From a virus, in IMG/VR virus record IMGVR_UViG_3300049432_000057, positions 1-31,647 of that record: a DNA stretch of 31,647 bases; one strand, written 5' to 3'. Of this stretch, positions 3,009 to 25,945 are shown in pieces. Every line of letters begins with the position of its first letter. Position 1 is the stretch's first letter. The position numbers and the translations under genes are program-made. A model generated the notes under the pieces. The model was given only the letters and a program-made list of their open reading frames with translations, did no database searches and was not told where the DNA came from.

Positions 3009-3044
3009 AAGGCTGTATCATGCCGAATCAGCAGCCAAAGTCAA

Positions 3045-4700
3045 TTACGAAGCGGCAGTACACGGGGTCGCGGTCAACGTCGCGCACTCGTCAGAGAAGT
3101 TCTCGATCGACAAATGCCGGTTCGGATCGCCCAACTGGGCCTGGATCATTTTCGATTGGAGTTGGTAGTGATTCACGTTCGGCTGAATCACGCAGTTGTA
3201 GAGATTGTCCGCGACGTTGGTCTGCCGGTTGACCGACCGCGTGTCCGCCAGCGCGATATTGAAATCGCTCCAGTCCGGGAAGAGAAGCTGCCGCCCGCGG
3301 CTCTTGATCGCGTCGGGGAACGCGGCCAGGTGATCGTCGAAATAATCATCGTGGAAGAAGTTGATGATGATGCCGTCTTCGGGGAACTCGAACTTGTCGT
3401 AGTTCCAGAGGACTTGGTTCTGGAAGGTGAGCTTCTGGCCGGGCGTGTAGAACCGGGTTGTCTCCAACCCGTAGCGGTCCTTCACGTAGGCCAGAAACGC
3501 CGTCTGGAACAAAACGTATGTGAACCGGTCCCCAAAGCAGTCAATCTCCACCATGCCGTCCAGACCGCGATGGCGCCGGAGGGCGTAGAGGAGCGCCTTG
3601 ATCATGTCGATGTCCAGCGCGGCTCCCTGCATGTCGATGACACGGCCGCACTCATTGAGTTGCGTCCGGTACCCGAGCGTGTTCGCTTTGTACTCCAACA
3701 CGCAGTCCGTGTTCGCCGGGTCCACCACTTGTGGCAGGTCGGTGTAACCATTGCTGGTCTGCTTCTCGTTGATGCGCTGGCCGTAGAACAGCGTGTTGTA
3801 GAAGTCCCTCTCCTCCTGCTCTCCCTGTCGTTTCCGCTGATCGGCCAAAGGCAAGGTACGGAACTTCTGGAAGAACGTCCCGGTGAGCGGGGCCTGCAAC
3901 GCCTTCACGTACTCATCGTTGTAGCACCATGTCGAGCGCACCGTCTGCCACCAGAAATCGCGCAGCTTGAGCGTGTTCTCGGCCGGGTACTGGTAGCACC
4001 AGGACTCGTAATTCGAGACCGAGTTCGCCAGGTTGATGACCACGCCGGTCTCCGGCGCGAACACGTCCTGTTCATCGCCCGACAGCCCCGCCCAACCCGC
4101 CGCGGAGTACGGCGGTTCAACGTCAACATTCGCCTTGCTGTTTCCGCCTGCGTCGGCGTTTGCGCTGCCCAATACCTTGAATTGCAGCGTCCGCGTCACG
4201 CCGCTGACCGGATCCAACGTCAGCACGGTGATGAACTTGCCGGGCAGGAAATACTTCTCGATGTGAACCAGCGACGTGGCGAATGAGCCAGCCGAGTTGA
4301 TGACCTTCAGTCGCAAGGCTCCGGCGTGCTGTGGGACGTATGTGGCACCCGGCGTTGCCGACGATGATTCGACCGTGAAATAGTTCGAGTTCACCACGCT
4401 GCGCTGCGGTACCAGCGAGAACGGGGCGATGATTGACCGGTTGTGCTGGTCGGTCCCGAGCACACCCTGTTTGCCAGGGCGGAACCGGCTCATCAGCAGG
4501 TCGGTCAAGGCGCGCTGACGGACCCCGGTCATCCTTAATTCCTTGGTTTGAGCTATGATCCGGTCCATGCCGACTTCCTTTAGGCCAAGGCTCTCAACGT
4601 CCTCGGCTGTCCAGGCTGTGATGGAGGCTCTGGTGAGAGTGCATCCGCAAGAATCGTCCACGGTAATCAGCCGCGGGTTACAATTATCGAGTAAGCTCAT
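3045..4700 (-). CDS. Putative major capsid protein
   Basis: 551 residues from the ATG at 4700 (MSLLDNCNPRL), which has GAAGGA just upstream. An in-frame TTG twelve codons earlier is less likely. I call it capsid from position: it follows the portal and scaffold-like genes and is closed by a strong terminator. It is also long, soluble and rich in aromatic beta-type segments, for example WWQTVRSTWCYNDEYVKALQ and the LNECGRVIDMQGAALDIDMI stretch. No single motif proves the HK97 fold. An HNH gene sits directly upstream. A large structural protein other than the capsid is the main alternative. Confidence 0.6.
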   Translation of the reverse strand: MSLLDNCNPRLITVDDSCGCTLTRASITAWTAEDVESLGLKEVGMDRIIAQTKELRMTGVRQRALTDLLMSRFRPGKQGVLGTDQHNRSIIAPFSLVPQRSVVNSNYFTVESSSATPGATYVPQHAGALRLKVINSAGSFATSLVHIEKYFLPGKFITVLTLDPVSGVTRTLQFKVLGSANADAGGNSKANVDVEPPYSAAGWAGLSGDEQDVFAPETGVVINLANSVSNYESWCYQYPAENTLKLRDFWWQTVRSTWCYNDEYVKALQAPLTGTFFQKFRTLPLADQRKRQGEQEERDFYNTLFYGQRINEKQTSNGYTDLPQVVDPANTDCVLEYKANTLGYRTQLNECGRVIDMQGAALDIDMIKALLYALRRHRGLDGMVEIDCFGDRFTYVLFQTAFLAYVKDRYGLETTRFYTPGQKLTFQNQVLWNYDKFEFPEDGIIINFFHDDYFDDHLAAFPDAIKSRGRQLLFPDWSDFNIALADTRSVNRQTNVADNLYNCVIQPNVNHYQLQSKMIQAQLGDPNRHLSIENFSDECATLTATPCTAAS

Positions 4701-13046: not shown

Positions 13047-16034
13047 CTATCCCGCCGTATAAACGCGCGGAATTGCTACTTCGCCGATCTGCGGGCGCAC
13101 CGTGCCGCGGCCGCGCGCCGCGTAATAAATTCTGGCGTATGTTAAACTGTCGAAGGCGTGCCCGAACCTGGACTTGGCCCGTGGCCGCAGCCGGTTGTTC
13201 GGGTCCTCCTCCAGCTTCCGGAACATCTCGCGCGTCTTCAAGCACGTCGCGCTCACCTGCAGGTCCACGTTGGTCAACCCTTCCCGGCACAGGCGCACGC
13301 GCGTCTCGACCGAGTAGGCGCCCTTGGGTGCCGCCACCATTTTGATGACGCCTTTGCTGAGGTCCTCGATGTCCTTCACGTCAAAGGAACCGGTCGCCGC
13401 GCGGTACTGGTTGAACGCCGAATCGTCGGAGATGTAGTTGACTCTGAATTCATGCGCCTGCCGAGCGCGCCAGTAAGCGACTCGCTCCATGACGATGGGG
13501 ACAAGTTTCGGGTAGGCGATGTAGCGGTCGATGAACACGCACTCGTCGAACACTAGCCAGATGAGGCGATCCTTCACCGGGATGAACTGTTCGAACGTCA
13601 CCGACGAGTGCGCGGCTCCAAGGTCCCAGCCCGTGTCGATGGGAATGCCCGGTATCGGGAGAAGTCCAACGTTGTGGATCGCGTCCCCTTTGACGTGCAG
13701 GTTCTCGTTGTAATCGTTCCGGAACAGACCGTCGCCGACCGGCGCCTCGACCCATTCGCCCAGAATCATCCGGCGATACTCCGTGTCGTCGCCCTTGCAG
13801 CAATCCATCACGGTTTCCAGGTAGCCTTCGGGCAGATTGTGTTTGTTGTCAGCGATTGGAAGGTGCAGGACGTAGTAGCTATCGTTCCATTTGCCAGTCT
13901 TCTCATCCACGGGCATCACGAAGAAGCGGTTGTAGAGCCAGTGCGACGGCCCGGCCGGGTTGCAGGTGTAAACGACGGCCTTGTGCGCTATGTGCCGGTC
14001 GCGTCCGAGTTGTTGGACCAGGTGTTTGAAGTAGGTGTCTGATTCCAACACCTGCGCTTCGTCAACGAGGATGAAGCTCGGTTCGATGCCTTTGACGCGC
14101 GGCGCCACGAACCCTTCGTAGGGCATGGAGACAAGAATCACGCGGGACCAGCCGCCGAACTTGTTGGAGATCCAGATGTAGATGTCCTTGTAACGATTTG
14201 AGCGCGGCTCGGTGAACAGGGCGTTGCCGTTGCGCTCGTAATCGTCGCGGATGTCCGTGTTGAGCTTGTGCCACACGCCGCCCTCCTCTGCCTGCCGTCC
14301 GGTCGGGACGATGATCAGCCCACGCGCGTTTCTGTTCTCGCGGCAATGATCCACCAGAGCGAGCAGGCCAAGGTAAGACTTTGCCGAATTGTGATTGACG
14401 ATCCCATTGGCAATGAAGGAATCGGTTTTGGGAACAGTCAAATCACAGAGCGTCGCCTCGGTAGGAGAGGCTGACTCAACCAACACCCACCTGTCGGTGA
14501 AGGTCAACGCATCCAGAGATTCACTGGTTCCGCAGATTTGTTTGAACCGGTTCAATGTTCCCGGGCTTGGAACATTTCCACAGTGAAGAAAGGATTTCCT
14601 CTTGTTATGCCATGCTCGGGTATGCCCTCGCACCTTCGATCGTCGGGCCTGCATCTCCAAAGCAAATTGCTTCGCTTCGCCACGAGATCCGAAAGTCCTG
14701 CAAAAATCCTCTCCGCGAATGTGCCCAGACACGTTCCAAGTAACGGTTCCTTTGAACCTCCGCGTGGAGACAATTTTCTTTACCTTAAACGGTTTCCGGT
14801 GATTTGGTCGCACGCCAAGACAAGCGGTTCCAGGTTTCAAAGCCTTCATCGCGTCACGGATGAACTCAGGGTATCCATAGGCTTTTCGGTTCACGAAGGC
14901 TACGGATGAAACGCCGTGATCGGATTTGCGCTTTATCTCAAACCCGATTTGGTCAATGAACTTTCGACCTTCTTCGCCCATGCAGTAAGTCTTCCAGCAG
15001 CCAGCCTTCTTATTGGGGCTGAACCTTCTGACCGAAAAAATGCCGAGTGCTTGGAGGCAGTCCTGAACATCCTTCGACAATCCTTCACTGGCAGTCGCAT
15101 GGGCAACACAACCCACTTTTTTATCAACGGTTCCATCCGTATCGAACAAACCACGAAGGAAGGATCGAATCACCGGCGCCGGTGATTCGATAATCTGATC
15201 TGGAATTCGTTTGAACTTGGAGAGCGTGGCCATTCCAAGCTGGCATAGAAGCGCCTTCAGATCAGCAGCATTGCAAATACTGAAACTGTATTTGCGCTTC
15301 CCCGCTCGCAATTCGCATCCAATGGCGGCAAGTTCGTGGCGGACGCGATCCACACATTCGGCATCCGCATTTGTGAACTGAAGCATTCCCCCTTTGGCTG
15401 CGCCGCTCAAAGTGCCATCTCCGCACAGGGCGCCAAGCAGATAGCCCGTCCCTTCGTCCAGGCAGACGCCTTCAACTTTCAGGTAACGCGAAGTCACAAA
15501 CTGCGGATACCTGAGCAATGGCACGTACACCTGACGACCGTTTGAGACGATCCCGGCAATGTCCTCAGCTTTCACAAACCCAGTGAATGCCGTGCCGTCT
15601 TCTTTTCGATAAGCGCACCACAATGGGTGCCACGGAGACACCGTGATGTGATTGCCATTGTTGAATTGAAGCCGCAACGCCTGCCTGCTTGTCTCATTCA
15701 GAAAATGGCTGGTCTTGGCGACCACGGATCGGGAACCATCCCAGCTTAAAATCTCATGCTCGAACGGGTGAAAGCCAGGGTCGGTTGACGGGCGAAGCCT
15801 TCGGAATCTTTTCAATCCTCCGTCCACGTAGAGCAAGGCGCCTTCTTCGATGCAATACTTCTCGCCGAAAATGAGATTGTATTTGTGCGTCTTGATCGCG
15901 TCGAAGCCCTGGCTTTGTACCGGGTTCATCGGCGGACGGTAGGGCCGGTAGTGGAGACCGTGAGGCTGGTCAGGAGTGTCGTACTCCTCCGCGTAGGCTT
16001 CTGTCAGGGCGTCTAATTCTTCGTTCGTTGGCAT
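13047..16034 (-). CDS. terL: Terminase large subunit interrupted by an intein
   Basis: 995-residue precursor; after splicing about 506 residues, normal for TerL. The N-extein ends LIFGEKY (residue 60) and the C-extein resumes SAKSYLGLLAL, so the joined ATPase P-loop is GEKYSAKS, with Ala where Gly is usual. Walker B is FILVDEAQ, the coupling region YTCNPAG. The nuclease domain shows DTGWDLGAAHSS, YISDDSAFNQYR and HAFDSLTYA, matching its metal-binding acids. The protein cuts concatemers and drives DNA into the prohead through the portal. Its start lies inside the end of the upstream HNH gene. Without splicing the ATPase site is not formed. Confidence 0.92.
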   Translation of the reverse strand: MPTNEELDALTEAYAEEYDTPDQPHGLHYRPYRPPMNPVQSQGFDAIKTHKYNLIFGEKYCIEEGALLYVDGGLKRFRRLRPSTDPGFHPFEHEILSWDGSRSVVAKTSHFLNETSRQALRLQFNNGNHITVSPWHPLWCAYRKEDGTAFTGFVKAEDIAGIVSNGRQVYVPLLRYPQFVTSRYLKVEGVCLDEGTGYLLGALCGDGTLSGAAKGGMLQFTNADAECVDRVRHELAAIGCELRAGKRKYSFSICNAADLKALLCQLGMATLSKFKRIPDQIIESPAPVIRSFLRGLFDTDGTVDKKVGCVAHATASEGLSKDVQDCLQALGIFSVRRFSPNKKAGCWKTYCMGEEGRKFIDQIGFEIKRKSDHGVSSVAFVNRKAYGYPEFIRDAMKALKPGTACLGVRPNHRKPFKVKKIVSTRRFKGTVTWNVSGHIRGEDFCRTFGSRGEAKQFALEMQARRSKVRGHTRAWHNKRKSFLHCGNVPSPGTLNRFKQICGTSESLDALTFTDRWVLVESASPTEATLCDLTVPKTDSFIANGIVNHNSAKSYLGLLALVDHCRENRNARGLIIVPTGRQAEEGGVWHKLNTDIRDDYERNGNALFTEPRSNRYKDIYIWISNKFGGWSRVILVSMPYEGFVAPRVKGIEPSFILVDEAQVLESDTYFKHLVQQLGRDRHIAHKAVVYTCNPAGPSHWLYNRFFVMPVDEKTGKWNDSYYVLHLPIADNKHNLPEGYLETVMDCCKGDDTEYRRMILGEWVEAPVGDGLFRNDYNENLHVKGDAIHNVGLLPIPGIPIDTGWDLGAAHSSVTFEQFIPVKDRLIWLVFDECVFIDRYIAYPKLVPIVMERVAYWRARQAHEFRVNYISDDSAFNQYRAATGSFDVKDIEDLSKGVIKMVAAPKGAYSVETRVRLCREGLTNVDLQVSATCLKTREMFRKLEEDPNNRLRPRAKSRFGHAFDSLTYARIYYAARGRGTVRPQIGEVAIPRVYTAG
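14388..15854 (-). other. Intein with LAGLIDADG endonuclease inside TerL
   Basis: 489 residues (61-549 of the precursor). It starts at Cys (CIEEGALLYV) and ends FIANGIVNHN before Ser, giving the C1, terminal HN and +1 Ser needed for protein splicing. HITVSPWHPLW matches the block B histidine region. Two LAGLIDADG-type helices are visible: GYLLGALCGDGT and SFLRGLFDTDGT, both with the catalytic Asp, so the homing nuclease looks intact. The splice site lies within Walker A, a highly conserved target that makes precise loss difficult. Confidence 0.93.
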
Positions 16035-18437: not shown

Positions 18438-19112
18438 TCAGAATACCGTGGCACTCTTTGGCTGCGGTTCCGGCTCTTTGAACGACAGTCGCGCCCGATC
18501 CAACGTTTTCGACCAGTTGCTAAGCAACGAGTGAATAGAGGTTGGAAAGAATTTTCGCTTCGCCGGTTCTAGTTTTGAACGCCAGTCGAGTATCATTCGA
18601 AGTTCTGGTCCAAGTTTTGGCCGTTCACGGATCAGTTCCGCCAACGTGGACTCCTCCATGTAAGACCACGGACTTTCTGGAGGTCGATAGAAGGCGTCGC
18701 CCAAGAGTTGGCGAATTGTCCCAAAATCAACTTCCAGCGTGTTAGGTTCAATGACTGGTTCAGTACTGACTGGTTTGGGTGTCAGGCTGACACCACCCCC
18801 TGGTGACTGGCTGACACCAGGGTGGTGTCTGGCTGACACCCCCTGGTGACAAATCAATCGGTACAGGTTTGAATCCGGATCGCCTTTGGCGTCAAAACGA
18901 GGAATGATTTCTATGAAGGAACGTTCGGATAAATCCTGCAATCGGCGTTGGACCGTGCGCTCGGACAAGAGAGCTTCGCTGGCTAACCGTCGAACTGACG
19001 GCCAGCAGGTGTTTTCGCTGCCGGAATAATTAGCCAGCAGAAGGAGGATGAGTTTTGATTCGGCATCGGGAGGCGTTTGATCTATCGCCCATGTCATAGC
19101 TTGGAAGGACAT
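18438..19112 (-). CDS. Replication initiator (winged-helix, lambda O-like layout)
   Basis: 224 residues from the ATG at 19112 (MSFQAMTWAIDQ); the open frame before it is leader sequence. The N-terminal domain is a winged helix of the replication-initiator type: TWAIDQTPPDAESKLILLLL, CWPSVRRLASEALLSERTVQ, RRLQDLSERSFIEII. The C-terminal part (LAELIRERPKLG, then LLSNWSKTLDRARLSF) may contact the helicase. The linker (about residues 88-115) is encoded by three copies of a GGCTGACACC repeat. Binding domain, repeats in the linker DNA, then a helicase encoded next is the layout of lambda O and ori. Confidence 0.75.
   Translation of the reverse strand: MSFQAMTWAIDQTPPDAESKLILLLLANYSGSENTCWPSVRRLASEALLSERTVQRRLQDLSERSFIEIIPRFDAKGDPDSNLYRLICHQGVSARHHPGVSQSPGGGVSLTPKPVSTEPVIEPNTLEVDFGTIRQLLGDAFYRPPESPWSYMEESTLAELIRERPKLGPELRMILDWRSKLEPAKRKFFPTSIHSLLSNWSKTLDRARLSFKEPEPQPKSATVF
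18785..18840. repeat. Three iterons within the initiator gene; candidate origin
   Basis: The 10-mer GGCTGACACC occurs at 18785, 18809 and 18831, spaced 24 and 22 bases, about two helical turns. The spacers share CCCCTGGTGA or its near-inverse CAGGGTGGTG. Related GACTGG words precede it at 18753-18772. Phased repeats inside an initiator gene suggest the origin. Confidence 0.55.
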
Positions 19113-21151: not shown

Positions 21152-21198
21152 TGGACTTGATCGTTAATCATTCCTTTCAAGGTTGGTCTAATCCTCTG

Positions 21199-22290
21199 TT
21201 AGACGGCCAAGGGCAACCCCAGTGTTGTGCAACATCTTTGGTCGCTGAGTTTCAGATACGTCGGGTTGAGTTCAATCAGCACGGCCCGCCGTCCAAGTTC
21301 CAAAGCCACCTTGCCAGTTGTGCCGCTGCCCGCGAACGGGTCCAGCACCAGTCCGCCAGCAGGACACCCCGCGAGAATGCACGGCTTTATCAGATCGGGC
21401 GGGAATGTGGCAAAGTGCGCGTCCTTGTAAGACATCGTTGGCACTGTCCAGACGGAGCGTTTGTTGCGACCCGATTCAGGATTTACGAATGTCTTGGCGC
21501 GATACCATGAAGGTTTGTCCTCGCCTGCGTTGTCAGGCGATTCGTCACGATGATATTTGCTCCCGTTCTCGCCTTGCGTGTGCCGCCCCGTGGAGTTACG
21601 GCCATCATTCATCGTGCTTTCAGCAAGCGGTTCTTTGATCGCTTCGTGATCGTAAAAATAGCTCTCCGATTTAGCCATCAGGAAGACGTATTCGTGGCTC
21701 TTGGTCGGACGATCCGTCACGCTCTCGGGCATCGGATTTGGTTTGTGCCAGATTATGTCAGAGCGCAGATACCAGCCATCCGCTTGCAGTGCCAGAGCAA
21801 CGCGCCACGGTATCCCTATGAGATTCTTTGCGGCTAGGTCGCATGGTGGCGCACCATCCCGGTTACGCGGACTTTCGTTGGTCACGATTCCATCAGCGCG
21901 ACCGGACCCGCGCCTTAGTGCGCGCGCGTAGCCTTCCCCGTAACCGTGTTTACCGTTTGGGCCGCTGCCTCCTTTTGTTGGATTGCTTGCGTAAGAATCG
22001 CCGAGATTCAGCCATAGCGTCCCATCTTTGCGGAGCACCCGCCGCACTTCACGAAAGACTTGCACCATCACGCCGACATATTCTTCCGGCGTGCGTTCGA
22101 GTCCGATTTGGTCGGCGTGGCCGTAGTCCCGCAGCCCCCAATACGGCGGGCTTGTCACGCAGCAGTTCACCGAAGCGTCCGGCAAAGACTTCATCACCTC
22201 TCGGCAATCTCCATTCAAAAGCGTGAGGGGTTGGCCGTCTAACCGAGCGCTGCACCGAACGCCGGGATTGCGGTTGGGTTTCAAGATCAT
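21199..22290 (-). CDS. DNA methyltransferase (TSPPY type) carried as a cassette
   Basis: 363 residues. Motif IV is VTSPPYWGLRDYG (about residues 46-58) and motif I VLDPFAGSGTTGK near the C-terminus, the beta-class order; TSPPY is commonest in N4-cytosine methylases but also occurs in N6-adenine ones. The start codon lies in the loop of site A. The first 20 or so residues (MILKPNRNPGVRCSARLDG) are encoded by the left arm of the site, so they are an add-on to the real domain, which begins near LTLLNGDC. The stop TAA is part of the left core GTTAGAC. No restriction partner is present. Confidence 0.85.
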   Translation of the reverse strand: MILKPNRNPGVRCSARLDGQPLTLLNGDCREVMKSLPDASVNCCVTSPPYWGLRDYGHADQIGLERTPEEYVGVMVQVFREVRRVLRKDGTLWLNLGDSYASNPTKGGSGPNGKHGYGEGYARALRRGSGRADGIVTNESPRNRDGAPPCDLAAKNLIGIPWRVALALQADGWYLRSDIIWHKPNPMPESVTDRPTKSHEYVFLMAKSESYFYDHEAIKEPLAESTMNDGRNSTGRHTQGENGSKYHRDESPDNAGEDKPSWYRAKTFVNPESGRNKRSVWTVPTMSYKDAHFATFPPDLIKPCILAGCPAGGLVLDPFAGSGTTGKVALELGRRAVLIELNPTYLKLSDQRCCTTLGLPLAV

Positions 22291-22327
22291 GGTTTATTCC
22301 CCGGCGTCGGTGAGCTTGTCGTTGTGC
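22237..22327. repeat. attC-like site A
   Basis: GTCTAAC (22237) and GTTGTGC (22321) are the outer cores. The inner arms GCTGCACCGAACGCCGGG and CCCGGCGTCGGTGAGC pair with two extra bases (G, A) in the left arm. The loop holds a stop and, on the minus strand, a GGGGAAT-ATG start used by the methyltransferase. Confidence 0.8.
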
Positions 22328-22578
22328 TGCGCTTCGGCCCGCAACGCCTCTTTCATTTCTCTGAATGATGCGTCACAGACCGCCTCAATATCTCCGTATC
22401 CGGCAACGTATGCGTGCTCCACATTCCAGATGAAGTCTTCTACGGCCTGCTGAAGTCTTGGTTTAGCAACGGGCGCAGCACAACCACTCACTGAAGCCAA
22501 CGCCTTCCCGCCCGGTGGTGAGTAGCACTCATGGCATTTGCATATCTGCGTGTCCATCAGACTGTTTTTGCAGATCAT
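22294..22578 (-). CDS. Cassette protein of unknown function
   Basis: 94 residues (MICKNSLMDTQICKCHECYS at the start). It begins with an ATGA overlap in the right arm of site B and ends with TAA in the loop of site A, so both termini are site-encoded. The core, about residues 35-80, is helical: RLQQAVEDFIWNVEHAYVAG then DASFREMKEALRAEAQ. The N-terminus has CxCxxC (ICKCHEC). A second start, MDTQICKC, is possible at 22554. No family recognised. The cassette proper (about 156 bp between sites) is one of the smallest in the array. Confidence 0.55.
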   Translation of the reverse strand: MICKNSLMDTQICKCHECYSPPGGKALASVSGCAAPVAKPRLQQAVEDFIWNVEHAYVAGYGDIEAVCDASFREMKEALRAEAQHNDKLTDAGE

Positions 22579-22605
22579 CGGCGTAGCTTAGTTCGGTCGT
22601 TCGGC
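22478..22605. repeat. attC-like site B (longest)
   Basis: Outer cores GCACAAC (22478) and GTTCGGC (22599) are 128 bp apart. Inner arms GAAGCCAACGCC and GGCGTAGCTTAG pair with extra bases on the left. It is the most divergent site, with a larger loop, but keeps the geometry and polarity of the others. Confidence 0.65.
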
Positions 22606-22889
22606 GGCTCGGTTCGGGTTGGCGTGAGATTTTGCGCAATCAAGCCTCCACGCCGTAGAGCGGTGTCGAGCCTGTCCACAAGTTCGGTGAGCTTTTGGAA
22701 CTCAGGCGTCATTTCTTTCGGATACCCATTCATCCGGCAGAAGGCGCACAGTTCTACAGCAGCGTCCACGACGCTAGTGTTCATTGGTTTGGTCGTGAGC
22801 GAGCCGTCGGGGTTGAATTGTATTTCCCATTTGCCGGCCTTACCGCTCAGAATTTCTTCGAGTTCTTCGATGGTCGGTCGCTTTGTCAT
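22575..22889 (-). CDS. Cassette protein of unknown function
   Basis: 104 residues (MTKRPTIEELEEILSGKAGK), followed by WEIQFNPDGSLTTKP, a central CAFCRMNGYPKEMTPEFQKL and a site-encoded basic tail (NDRTKLRR). IEELEEIL and a charged helical body look like many small phage early proteins. It is coupled upstream to the zinc-ribbon gene (ATGA) and downstream to the next gene (ATGA in site B). Unlike its neighbours its start is not in an attC-like site; the two genes share one cassette. Function unknown. Confidence 0.7.
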   Translation of the reverse strand: MTKRPTIEELEEILSGKAGKWEIQFNPDGSLTTKPMNTSVVDAAVELCAFCRMNGYPKEMTPEFQKLTELVDRLDTALRRGGLIAQNLTPTRTEPPNDRTKLRR

Positions 22890-23068
22890 ACTTCCTCCAG
22901 TCTGTTATGTCCGCAGTTGTAGCAGCCTGCTCCCTCAAACTCCATGCCTCTCCAAAGCGTAGCGCACGAAGGGCAAATGAATCGCTTCCCTATCCGCCGC
23001 CGCCGAACACTGCGCTGCACCGAACCGCCAATTGCGCTTGGTGATTTGCCTTGGAGTTTCTCTTTCAT
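22886..23068 (-). CDS. Small zinc-ribbon cassette protein
   Basis: 60 residues. The start is in the loop of site C, so the basic N-terminal half (from MKEKLQGKSP to VRRRRIGK) is encoded by the site. The real domain is the zinc ribbon FICPSCATLWRGM then GCYNCGHNRLEEV, with four Cys. A shorter product would lack an obvious start, so the site probably supplies translation initiation. Such ribbons are common in small phage proteins; no specific role can be assigned. Confidence 0.6.
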   Translation of the reverse strand: MKEKLQGKSPSAIGGSVQRSVRRRRIGKRFICPSCATLWRGMEFEGAGCYNCGHNRLEEV

Positions 23069-23108
23069 ACGTCAGAGGCTGGCGGTCGGTGAGCTTGGGT
23101 CGTTCGGC
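23002..23108. repeat. attC-like site C
   Basis: GCCGAAC (23002) and GTTCGGC (23102), extended outward to GCCGCCGAAC / GTTCGGCGGC. Inner arms GCTGCACCGAACCGCCA and TGGCGGTCGGTGAGC pair with extra G and A on the left. The loop carries the ATG of the zinc-ribbon gene on the minus strand. Confidence 0.8.
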
Positions 23109-23111
23109 GGC

Positions 23112-23381
23112 TTACTCTTCATACTCGTCGCCTTCGCAGTCGGGGCAGCCGAAGCATTCTACCTCGCCATGCCAGTGACAAACGCAAAAGTCGCCACCGC
23201 AGAGGCACTCGATTGAGCCTTGCCCGCCGCAGCGTGTCGGAAGTGGCGCGTAGTACGGATTCTTCACCCCGCACCAGCACACTTCCACCTTGGTTTCGCT
23301 TTCCACGTCCGCCGCCGAACACTGCGCTGCAGGCGACGGCGGGGAGCCGGTTGAGTCAGGCCTTGGGTCAGGGGTATTCAT
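23112..23381 (-). CDS. Cys-rich acidic cassette protein
   Basis: 89 residues. The first 25 or so (MNTPDPRPDSTGSPPSPAAQ and on) come from site D. The domain is Cys-rich and acidic: CWCGVKNPYYAPL, then CGGQGSIECLCGGDFCVCHW, then ECFGCPDCEGDEYEE. The Cys pairs indicate zinc binding. I recall similar short acidic Cys-rich proteins in phage early regions, without known function. The start ATG overlaps the previous stop (ATGA) in the loop of site D. The stop lies just outside site C. Confidence 0.7.
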   Translation of the reverse strand: MNTPDPRPDSTGSPPSPAAQCSAADVESETKVEVCWCGVKNPYYAPLPTRCGGQGSIECLCGGDFCVCHWHGEVECFGCPDCEGDEYEE

Positions 23382-23420
23382 TTATCAGTTGCCCGCCGCG
23401 CCTGAGCTTGGTAGTTCGGC
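23314..23420. repeat. attC-like site D
   Basis: GCCGAAC (23314) and GTTCGGC (23414). Inner arms GCTGCAGGCGACGGCGGG and CCCGCCGCGCCTGAGC differ from the other sites yet stay complementary, again with extra G and A on the left. This compensatory change argues for selection on the hairpin. Confidence 0.82.
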
Positions 23421-23842
23421 GGAATCTCCAGGCCACGCGAGGGGCGCGGACCCACCATGATCGCCAGAGGGGTCGGCAGCTTTTCCACGAGTGGTCGCCA
23501 GAGATGCAAGCACGCCTGATGATAGTTCACGTATTCGCTTTTGGCGGGGTGGAACTGACAAACCCAGTCCTCCGGTTCCCAGAATAACTCTTTTACCCAG
23601 CACATGAGGCCCCAGCGCGGCGGACTCTTATCCATCTCCACGGATACGGAGACGTGTTGCCATTTGAAACGCTCATCCTCAAAATCTGTTCCATCGCTGG
23701 CGATGCACCGGACTATTTCACCGTCCTTCGGTAGTCGAAAGAGACCGTTGAAGCCGTAGCTGTCGTCCGACCAGTACTGCGGAGGTATCGTCAGCGTTCC
23801 CGCTTTCACACGATGCTTGTTCAGCAATGCCCAGTCGCTCAT
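23378..23842 (-). CDS. DUF7694-like phage protein carried as a cassette
   Basis: 154 residues from the ATG at 23842 (MSDWALLNKHRVKAG). The family signature is clear from memory: KWQHVSVSVE, PRWGLMCWVKELFWEPEDW, VCQFHPAKSEYVNYHQACLH, then LWRPLVEKLPTP. Such proteins occur in phages and prophages; function is not known to me. The last residues (QAQARRATDK) come from site D, where the TGA lies in the loop. Its ATG overlaps the stop of a 21-residue leader encoded by site E. Confidence 0.8.
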   Translation of the reverse strand: MSDWALLNKHRVKAGTLTIPPQYWSDDSYGFNGLFRLPKDGEIVRCIASDGTDFEDERFKWQHVSVSVEMDKSPPRWGLMCWVKELFWEPEDWVCQFHPAKSEYVNYHQACLHLWRPLVEKLPTPLAIMVGPRPSRGLEIPPNYQAQARRATDK

Positions 23843-23904
23843 AAGCAATTCCGCCGAACCACGCGCTGCACCGAACGCCGGGGAGTCGTCTCGGTTGAAG
23901 TCAT
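23839..23904 (-). CDS. Site E leader peptide (21 residues)
   Basis: An ATG in the loop of site E, preceded by GGGAAG, opens MTSTETTPRRSVQRVVRRNC plus Leu, and its TGA overlaps the ATG of the DUF7694-like gene. This is what a leader for translational coupling looks like. It could also be a chance frame through the hairpin arm. Confidence 0.35.
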   Translation of the reverse strand: MTSTETTPRRSVQRVVRRNCL

Positions 23905-23944
23905 AGCGTTTTCTTCCCGGCGTCGGTGAGCTTGGTAGTTAGGC
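23853..23944. repeat. attC-like site E (mixed cores)
   Basis: GCCGAAC (23853) on the left and GTTAGGC (23938) on the right do not fully match each other, but each matches the far end of its own cassette. Inner arms GCTGCACCGAACGCCGGG and CCCGGCGTCGGTGAGC pair with extra G and A on the left. Confidence 0.82.
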
Positions 23945-24217
23945 CAATGCGCCTTTGTATGGTTCAAAGCTCTTACCGAACATCTCGCAACACCAGTTAT
24001 GGGCGGCGACGATGTGCGATGATGGTATTCTTTGACTGCTTGTATCCAGATGGACGAGCCACCAGATTCCAGGGCTTTCGTTGATGTCGTGTGGCCGTTC
24101 AAAAGCGAATTGTGTGTGATGACCATGAATGCAGATTGCTTCATCAAAGATCACTTGGCTGTCGGCGATGGTTACGTTGTAGCCGATGCCAGAAAGGATG
24201 GTTGTTTGTTGTGTCAT
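23939..24217 (-). CDS. Cassette protein of unknown function
   Basis: 92 residues from the ATG at 24217 (MTQQTTILSGIGYNVTIADS), which overlaps the stop of the leader encoded by site F. The protein is compact with several aromatic and His residues (AICIHGHHTQFAFE, SPGIWWLVHLDTSS, AAHNWCCEMFGKSFEPY). The stop TAA is part of the core of site E (GCCTAAC on the minus strand). No family recognised. The frame is open for another 110 codons upstream, but that part only reads through site F and the neighbouring cassette out of frame. Confidence 0.65.
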   Translation of the reverse strand: MTQQTTILSGIGYNVTIADSQVIFDEAICIHGHHTQFAFERPHDINESPGIWWLVHLDTSSQRIPSSHIVAAHNWCCEMFGKSFEPYKGALA

Positions 24218-24276
24218 AATTGGCCTAACCAAGCGCTGCACCGAACGGCGGGATTGCGGTTGGGTTTCAAGATCAT
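24214..24276 (-). CDS. Site F leader peptide (20 residues)
   Basis: The loop of site F offers GGGGAAG and an ATG that opens MILKPNRNPAVRCSAWLGQL; the TGA overlaps the ATG of the next cassette gene. The same opening residues form the fused N-terminus of the methyltransferase at site A, where no stop intervenes. Confidence 0.4.
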   Translation of the reverse strand: MILKPNRNPAVRCSAWLGQL

Positions 24277-24315
24277 GGTTTCTTCCCCGCCGTCGGTGAG
24301 CTTGGGTCGTTCGGC
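24223..24315. repeat. attC-like site F (mixed cores)
   Basis: GCCTAAC (24223) and GTTCGGC (24309) are mixed in the opposite sense to site E, so the cassette between them has matching ends GTTAGGCCAAT / ATTGGCCTAAC. Loop and arms are nearly identical to site A. Confidence 0.85.
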
Positions 24316-24593
24316 TGCGCGGACATGCGCTTTTCCAGTTCGTCGAGTTTTGCGTCCACGTCGTCGCGTTTGTACCACTGCTCGCCTCCGTTCGCGGGAT
24401 GCGTTGGGACGAGGTTGTGTTCGCCTGGATAAACTGACATGGCGTAGGGCTGTATGCCTCTACAGCAGCATCTGGCTCTTTCTCTCGTGCAGATTTCGCA
24501 ATAGTCAGCCTCGGTCGCGTCAGCCGAACCAAGCGCTGCAGCGAACCCGGCATTTGTTTTCGGTTTGGCCATAAGTTTCAGGTGTTTGCTCAT
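24273..24593 (-). CDS. Cassette protein of unknown function (first in the array)
   Basis: 106 residues. Residues 1-28 or so (MSKHLKLMAKPKTNAGFAAA and on) derive from the array edge and half site G, and the last residues (SSPTAGKKP) from site F. Between them are a Cys cluster (CEICTRERARCCCRG) and GGEQWYKRDDVDAKLDELEK, a charged helix. A start at MSVYPGEHN is possible. The ATG at 24593 overlaps the stop of the preceding early gene. Function unknown. Confidence 0.6.
   Translation of the reverse strand: MSKHLKLMAKPKTNAGFAAALGSADATEADYCEICTRERARCCCRGIQPYAMSVYPGEHNLVPTHPANGGEQWYKRDDVDAKLDELEKRMSAQPNDPSSPTAGKKP
24523..24551. repeat. Half attC-like site G, right end of the array
   Basis: GCCGAAC followed by AAGCGCTGCAGCGAACCCGG is a left core and left arm, but no matching right arm or right core occurs in the next 100 bases. 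It is either a site cut by deletion or the natural outer boundary of the array. Confidence 0.6.
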
Positions 24594-25945
24594 TTCCGAG
24601 CCGCCGCCTTCTTGTCCATCCGGACCTGGGCGGCGATGATCTGCGCGTTGTCCAGAAGGTCGGTGAGGATGTCATCCGGTAGCTGAACCAACTGCTCGAT
24701 CTTCGCGTCGCAGATGTCCCGGCGTTTCAGGACGCCAAGTACTTCCTGTTCCGTGACGTTCTGAGCCTTCAACATCTCGTAGGTCTGATCGTGAAGGTTG
24801 GGGACCGGTTGACCACCACCCGGCAACTCAGGTTGTTGCTCCTGCGGGGGCTGGGGCTGTTCGGGTTCGGGTTCCGCTGGTGGCGGTTCCGGTTCCGTGG
24901 GCGGATCGGACATGGCCGACTTCTTCTTACCGATCCCTGCCCGCGCCTTCGCCATTCGTTCCTGCGCCGGGGTCATCCCGGTGACCGCCGCTGGTGTCGT
25001 CACCGTCCCGACCGGATCTGCGGACTTGGTTTCTGCGGGCTTGGTCTCTGCTGGCGCCGTCGTGGTTTGGGTTTCGGCAGCTTTCGCCGGGGCAAGGCCA
25101 GCTTCGGACTCGGCTTTTTCATCCTTCTTTTTCTCCTCCTCCTTCTTCTTCTCATCGAACTTCGCCGGCTTGGGCGTCGCCGTCAGATCAAAGAAGTCTT
25201 CCCTCTTGCCCATGCCGTCCTTCAGGGACGTGTAAATCTTCCGGAGGATGACGACTTCCTGTTCGATCACGGCCTCCAACTTGTGCTGGAGACGGCGCTC
25301 GATCATTTCCATCGTGACGCCCAACTCACCGAATGCAGTCACGATCTTCCGGACCCGGTCGGTGATCGGTTCAGTGTGCCCGGCCTTGAGGGTCTTGTCG
25401 CACTGCTCAAGGGCGGCATCAATCACATCTCGCGGGATCACGGCTTCAAGGCAGGCGCGCTTGCGCCGTGCGGCGAAATTGGCCACTAACTCGTATTGGT
25501 CGCGTGGGTCAGTCAGCTTGGTAACGCCTTCCTTGCTGTAGCGCTCGTGGCGCACCGTGAACGTCTTTGAATCATACACATTCGTCTGAATATCCCATCC
25601 GAAACATTGCACTCGGCTCTCTCCGTTCTCATTGCTCAATTCCACGACGCCCGACTGGATGTTTCCCCACGCGACAGCAACGGCTTCCAGCAATCGGATG
25701 GACGCGCCGGTAATCTGCGTGCCTCCGCGCGAGTAAAGGTAGCTGGCTTCTTCCGCCAAAGTGCGGCGTTTGCACGCTGTAATGACGCGCTGAAACGCCT
25801 CGTGTTCATCACGGGGATACTTTTTTGCCACAACCAGGGCCGCTTGCATTTCCTGCGCGTCCTTGGATTGGGCGACTTGGACAATGGCGTTGGTCGGGCC
25901 TGCTGCAACTGCGAAGGGATTAGATGATGACGGGTGTGTTTCCAT
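24590..25945 (-). CDS. Conserved phage early protein, possible recombination function
   Basis: 451 residues. The N-terminal 200 or so are well ordered: GGTQITGASIRLLEAVAVAW, FGWDIQTNVYDSKTF, VTKLTDPRDQYELVANFAAR and RRKRACLEAVIPRDVIDAAL. I recall this family from many phage recombination regions beside PD-(D/E)XK nucleases, and a strand-annealing role would fit, though I cannot name a domain. Residues 265-370 are a Lys/Glu then Pro/Thr-rich linker. The C-terminal helical domain (MLKAQNVTEQEVLGVLKRRD) may bind a partner. It overlaps the HNH gene upstream by 26 bases. Confidence 0.6.
   Translation of the reverse strand: METHPSSSNPFAVAAGPTNAIVQVAQSKDAQEMQAALVVAKKYPRDEHEAFQRVITACKRRTLAEEASYLYSRGGTQITGASIRLLEAVAVAWGNIQSGVVELSNENGESRVQCFGWDIQTNVYDSKTFTVRHERYSKEGVTKLTDPRDQYELVANFAARRKRACLEAVIPRDVIDAALEQCDKTLKAGHTEPITDRVRKIVTAFGELGVTMEMIERRLQHKLEAVIEQEVVILRKIYTSLKDGMGKREDFFDLTATPKPAKFDEKKKEEEKKKDEKAESEAGLAPAKAAETQTTTAPAETKPAETKSADPVGTVTTPAAVTGMTPAQERMAKARAGIGKKKSAMSDPPTEPEPPPAEPEPEQPQPPQEQQPELPGGGQPVPNLHDQTYEMLKAQNVTEQEVLGVLKRRDICDAKIEQLVQLPDDILTDLLDNAQIIAAQVRMDKKAAARK

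Follow-up and report, generated by a model that had tools for sequence, protein, structure and literature searches.

Genes that run backwards out of integron attC sites in a phage genome and appear to take their start codons from the attC loops

What supplies the start codons of a series of small genes that lie across repeated palindromic sites in a virus genome? The window, by which we mean the whole stretch of DNA analysed, is a 31,647-base IMG/VR virus record (IMGVR_UViG_3300049432_000057) in which genes for the large terminase subunit and for a DnaB-like primase-helicase were recognised; the other genes of its head module have homologues in contig G025. A first-pass annotation, made from the letters alone, had proposed that the loops of these sites act as portable translation signals, an observation that proves largely right and reaches well beyond the window, with an interpretation that is partly supported. 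The key fact it lacked is that the window genes run backwards relative to the sites. In the common view, integron cassettes rely on the promoter of their platform and on ribosome sites of their own, with genes in the usual orientation. What we describe here is a novel form of phage-borne cassette: the genes are reversed and their predicted start codon lies in attC.

The sites are integron attC sites, and recombination at them by IntI is predicted. A covariance model (CM R1) was built from 30 sites and the window scored with filters off, giving 63-94 bits at sites A, C, D, E and F, 34 bits at the weak site B and 20 bits at a half-site:

21198-21204, plus strand: left boundary core GTTAGAC (R'-like), inside a small palindrome at 21186-21204
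22237-22327, plus strand: attC site A; CM R1 73.7 bits; R'' GTCTAAC, R' degraded to GTTGTGC; minus-strand loop ATG 22288-22290 starts the DNA methylase
22478-22605, plus strand: attC site B, weak; CM R1 34 bits, E 2.8e-6; minus-strand loop ATG 22576-22578 starts a 94-aa gene
23002-23108, plus strand: attC site C; CM R1 75 bits; minus-strand loop ATG 23066-23068 starts a 60-aa CxxC...CxxC protein
23314-23420, plus strand: attC site D; CM R1 63.4 bits; minus-strand loop ATG 23379-23381 starts an 89-aa gene
23853-23944, plus strand: attC site E; CM R1 85.2 bits; minus-strand loop ATG 23902-23904 starts a 21-codon leader
24223-24315, plus strand: attC site F; CM R1 93.8 bits; minus-strand loop ATG 24274-24276 starts a 20-codon leader
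24523-24551, plus strand: half attC site (R''-L'' only) at the right array edge; core match, CM R1 20 bits

In the 30-site model the stem has compensatory changes at 9 of 15 pairs, an imperfect palindrome that conserves pairing rather than sequence, and two unpaired (extrahelical) columns, 17 and 24, on the R''-L'' side, that is in the L'' arm; a covarying stem with unpaired L'' bases is as expected for integron attC sites. Set against RYYYAAC...GTTRRRY, the cores are canonical at R'' of A and F and at R' of E, with GCCGAAC or GTTCGGC variants elsewhere and the R' of A degraded. Several sites of the array are degenerate, and some may therefore be relics. The site type is common to Verrucomicrobiota and other bacteria, and 10 of the 11 searched bacterial genomes that have it also have an integron integrase above cut-off. 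The window record itself contains no match to the integron integrase profile TIGR02249 and has six attC sites, where at least two suffice for a CALIN (a cassette cluster without an integrase), so the region is a CALIN in a phage, whose host is probably Verrucomicrobiota-like. Among annotated phages we found no near neighbours of the site, the terminase gave distant matches only, and TJE1, a phage with experimentally tested attC sites, gave no match to the covariance model of the window attC type.

The genes of the array are these:

21199-22290, minus strand: N6_N4 DNA methylase, 363 aa, beginning MILKPNRNPGVRCSARLD; PF01555 2.5e-52 from residue 41, phrog_67 from residue 23
22294-22578, minus strand: 94-aa gene with start in loop B (22578) and stop TAA in loop A (ORF and loop analysis)
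22575-22889, minus strand: 104-aa gene, the second gene of cassette C (ORF list)
22886-23068, minus strand: 60-aa gene with start in loop C, residues 1-22 attC-encoded (ORF and loop analysis)
23112-23381, minus strand: 89-aa gene with start in loop D, residues 1-22 attC-encoded (ORF and loop analysis)
23378-23842, minus strand: DUF7694 gene behind the site-E leader, native start MSDW (PF24746, 7e-21)
23839-23904, minus strand: site-E leader, MTSTETTPRRSVQRVVRRNCL then stop, TGA overlapping the next ATG (sequence)
23939-24217, minus strand: gene MTQQTT... behind the site-F leader, stop TAA in core GCCTAAC (sequence)
24214-24276, minus strand: site-F leader, MILKPNRNPAVRCSAWLGQL then stop, TGA overlapping the next ATG (sequence)
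24273-24593, minus strand: 106-aa gene adjoining the half-site (ORF list)

Most of what the first-pass annotation had read in these loops stands. Sites A, C and D start genes directly with a site-encoded N-terminus (the methylase of 363 aa and products of 60 and 89 aa), and a fourth direct start that it had overlooked lies at site B (94 aa, start 22578). In the methylase, residues 1-18 are encoded by attC A, the attC-encoded N-terminal sequence at the loop ATG being MILKPNRNPGVR. Sites E and F start short leaders of 21 and 20 codons, each with a TGA overlapping the ATG of the next gene. Stops are likewise site-encoded, both in cores (the TAA of GTCTAAC at 21198 ends the methylase and that of GCCTAAC at 23938 ends the site-F gene) and inside loops (at A a TAA that precedes the start; at B, D and F the TGA within ATGA). 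The ATGA of loop B overlaps the stop of the upstream gene 22575-22889, and that of loop D is also the end of the site-E gene. The ATG of the 104-aa gene, which lies in no attC, overlaps the region where the site-C gene stops; the ATG of the 106-aa gene overlaps the stop of the resident gene 24590-25945 and its TGA overlaps the ATG of leader F. The description of the signals as portable fits as well, in that a loop start and its gene lie within the same excisable unit. Sites F and A have nearly identical loops, and the sites are 95% identical over 80 nt. The small palindrome at the left array edge (21186-21204) reads GTCTAATCCTCTGTTAGAC and may mark where the array was first inserted; PMC9892861 describes inverted core motifs at the edges of arrays in other phages.

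Which way do genes usually run through this type of site? In the Verrucomicrobia locus L155, intI reads leftwards, followed by the core and then the attC top strand rightwards, and this layout beside intI fixes the usual attC orientation. The window cassette genes start inside the attC loop and exit through L'' and R'', and the canonical arrangement of a gene running towards its own R'' is not found. When orientation was called with a codon-bias score, viral intervals gave 37 reverse and 4 forward calls (17 of 59 viral intervals being unclear) versus 5 reverse and 45 forward for bacterial intervals (Fisher 2e-15). This score was used because a longest-ORF rule is uninformative in GC-rich viral arrays, where it returned 15 reverse versus 14 forward. 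Mainly forward calls were obtained for L031 and L202 of the viral set, which may be bacterial arrays misfiled as viral.

From the sites, their orientation, in-frame starts beyond chance, an excess of ATGA and the N-termini of homologues, all of them computed, we consider it likely that this is a phage CALIN with reverse cassettes in which the apical loop of attC supplies the start codon. Cassettes would have been inserted with their genes pointing the same way as the phage operon and against the direction usual for attC, and the variable apical loop would then provide the start codon of the reverse gene in one of two ways: 1. the gene would read straight out via L'' and R'', acquiring an attC-encoded N-terminus of about 15-30 residues, or 2. 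a short attC-encoded leader would end at a TGA overlapping the gene's own ATG. Since most loop starts have the form ATGA, a ribosome that terminates in the loop at the end of the preceding cassette gene could begin again on the next one. Between the R' cut and its own attC, a cassette would hold start, gene and often stop as one unit, so that a gene exchanged into the array could arrive with a translation start of its own and be linked to the genes beside it, the exchange being performed by an integron integrase of the host. Ribosome initiation at loop ATGs, the coupling, selection for that coupling and cassette exchange by host IntI are the steps that we infer. More tentatively, and with doubt slightly outweighing confidence, we suggest that phages keep their own pool of reverse cassettes, in which attC serves for recombination and also as start module (loop ATGA), with a coupled operon and attC-encoded N-termini.

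How often would loop starts of this kind arise by chance? Chance was modelled by dinucleotide shuffling (200 shuffles), and the six window sites alone are not decisive (loop ATG in 6 of 6 versus 4.7±0.7 in shuffles). At the other viral sites, 38 of 81 loops have an ATG that opens an ORF of 60 codons or more, compared with 15.7±3.0 in shuffled loops, with a maximum of 24, so the loop ATG does recur in related viral arrays, as the first-pass annotation required of it; the forward-strand control at these sites gave 11 versus 10.1 expected. Chromosomal arrays, where it had also advised looking, do not keep the signal: bacterial loops, whose genes run the opposite way, have no excess of productive reverse ATGs (19 of 196 versus 25.4±4.0 expected). 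A plain count of loop ATGs was weak as a test (55 versus 46.9±3.1), because many bacterial loops hold the ATG of a dead-end frame, MAGFAAAHG followed by a stop, and the test was run on in-frame starts in its place. That one ACG-to-ATG change leads from the bacterial to the viral loop is suggestive only, since strict alignment places it in just 3 viral sites and 3 bacterial sites also have ATG.

Might reverse insertion simply have severed genes from their own starts, so that any upstream in-frame ATG is used and the loop is not an evolved signal? About half of the viral sites (44 of 87) are without a loop start of a long ORF, and two of the three frames on the reverse strand of the GC-rich stems are open, both of which are compatible with such an origin. 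It is also favoured by the absence of Shine-Dalgarno enrichment. Weighing on the loop-start reading itself, some viral cassette genes begin just beyond R'' (9) or further along (9). The first-pass annotation had described a purine-rich GGGGAA or GGGAAG before the minus-strand ATG in most loops, and of this the ATG holds in 6 of 6 loops and the tract only at A, E and F; neither B nor C has it, D has GGGC in its place, and most of its G-run falls within the L' stem. As a ribosome-binding signal the tract is not supported: pairing with the anti-Shine-Dalgarno at or below -4 kcal/mol occurs at 10 of 45 viral loop starts, no more than the background of 20% for all ATGs and no better than other long-ORF starts (23%), and we rejected a Shine-Dalgarno or purine tract as the conserved signal of the viral group. 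Leaders E and F by themselves pair at -4.0 and -5.7 kcal/mol. Four observations argue against a mere consequence of insertion, which we consider unlikely: in-frame starts in shuffled loops reach less than half of the number observed; the loop start is ATGA in 37 of 43 cases (window included) versus 38% among the other ATGs of long ORFs (Fisher 5e-9); an R'' base change to GAAC, which takes a stop out of one reverse frame, is present in 33 of 87 viral versus 23 of 196 bacterial sites (Fisher 1.3e-6); and a top-strand TCAT motif recurs in the loops of several viral contigs. At 19 of the 43 loop starts, the TGA of the ATGA is exactly where the longest upstream open frame of 50 or more codons stops. 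Predicted folds place the loop-start ATG mostly in an open loop (mean unpaired 0.59). A mechanism in which an upstream ribosome unmasks a hairpin start is not supported, as accessibility does not change on removal of the upstream arm (initiation region unpaired 0.47 versus 0.48).

Are the loop starts needed at all? The true starts could be later ATG, GTG or TTG codons, with leaders E and F untranslated and the loop ORFs incidental. Two observations are in keeping with this: the methylase has a TTG at codon 24, and both homologues of the site-E gene, L300 and L301, start MSDWKFLN, which corresponds to the window MSDW behind the leader. Domain searches of loop-started ORFs identified PAPS-reductase, DnaB, MT-A70 and N6_N4 methylase genes, and the MT-A70 gene speaks against later starts: its domain begins at residue 24, directly after 22 attC-encoded residues, and its first 60 codons contain no other start codon. 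In the PAPS-reductase gene (G001) the next start codon comes only behind the SGGKDS motif, and a later start in the site-C CxxC gene would likewise cut domain or motif. Contig G005 and two of the window sites show TTATGA overlaps of leader and gene, which also speaks against incidental ORFs, and we think this alternative improbable. Among the homologues, 43 of 52 methylase proteins with a nearby ATG have it at a position equivalent to window residues 17-23, the attC part being residues 1-18, so the N-termini are consistent with both architectures, a start replaced at A and a leader added at E. The DnaB gene, also counted among those that appear to need their loop start, is a DnaB-type helicase ORF of 838 aa with a LAGLIDADG insert (L188 13812-16328, viral contig G008); a replication gene may thus sit in a cassette there.

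We think it improbable, too, that one ancestral array was inherited in a single phage lineage, with our statistics counting one event repeatedly. In its favour, the sister phage G007 and the window have a common backbone and array position, and some loops are near-identical; against it, loop starts of long ORFs are seen in 13 of 17 viral contigs, the structural genes of G001, G003, G010 and G022 are of other kinds and resemble the window little, and the sets of cassette genes are not the same. G007 has 68% (terminase) and 69% (exonuclease) protein identity to the window, and its array, at the same place, holds different cassettes; inside it only the attC sites align. Hallmark genes mark some of the other contigs as phages, namely those for a terminase and major head protein (G003), a portal and terminase-like protein (G010), a tape measure (G001) and a head-tail adaptor (G022).

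How does the preferred reading, of reverse cassettes started from the attC loop, compare with known systems? Phage CALINs, that is attC arrays without integrase and with methyltransferase cassettes, are described in the accessible parts of Qi et al. (2023; PMC9892861), as are phage attC sites of which some recombine with attI1 via IntI1. The window array is like them in being integrase-less and carrying a methyltransferase cassette; as far as those parts go, their arrays are typically same-direction, with divergent sites in one phage, and reverse cassettes with a start in attC are undescribed. The parallel with ORF-11 of attI1 drawn by the first-pass annotation is a fair one: ORF-11, ORF-17 and ORF-18 are short site-encoded ORFs that aid translation of the following gene through stop-start coupling, and their stop may come from the core site (PMC8876359, PMC4670013), and at E and F too a short site-encoded ORF ends at or near the next start. 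Unlike the window leaders, they lie in attI1, serve the first cassette only, have a real Shine-Dalgarno and are in the usual orientation. Nearer still is the short ORF that has been reported within certain attC sites, which relieves the stem-loop barrier and helps ribosomes to pass (PMC8876359, section 3.2); it likewise leads by termination-reinitiation into the next cassette, but it is in the usual orientation and is not the start or N-terminus of the cassette's own gene. Chromosomal integrons of Verrucomicrobiota and other environmental bacteria share the attC type but have intI and forward genes (45:5). We found no report of reverse cassettes that start in their own attC loop, which is weak evidence because most subscription journals were beyond reach. 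In the window the recombination site appears to supply the start, the N-terminus and sometimes the stop for genes running in the opposite direction. This would account for the use of cassettes by phages that have no integron platform, and for sister phages with unlike cassettes at a single position. The exchange of cassettes into phage operons becomes open to direct test, and starts at attC may be misplaced by gene callers.

Three further observations were made. A 5-kb Verrucomicrobia MAG contig (L041) has, at 3042-3147, a site with a loop nearly identical to that of window site C (MKEKLQG...), as well as reverse loop starts, and may be phage DNA binned with a bacterium. The window terminase ORF (13047-16034, minus strand) contains a homing-endonuclease-like insert (phrog_4645 at residues 197-306, the terminase match running from 550) that is probably an intein; the G007 terminase aligns on either side of it and is itself without insert, and insert-like matches adjoin helicase genes in G007 and G008. 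Lastly, a palindromic repeat, GGTGTC-GGCTGACACC, occurs in three tandem copies at 18777-18843 of the window.
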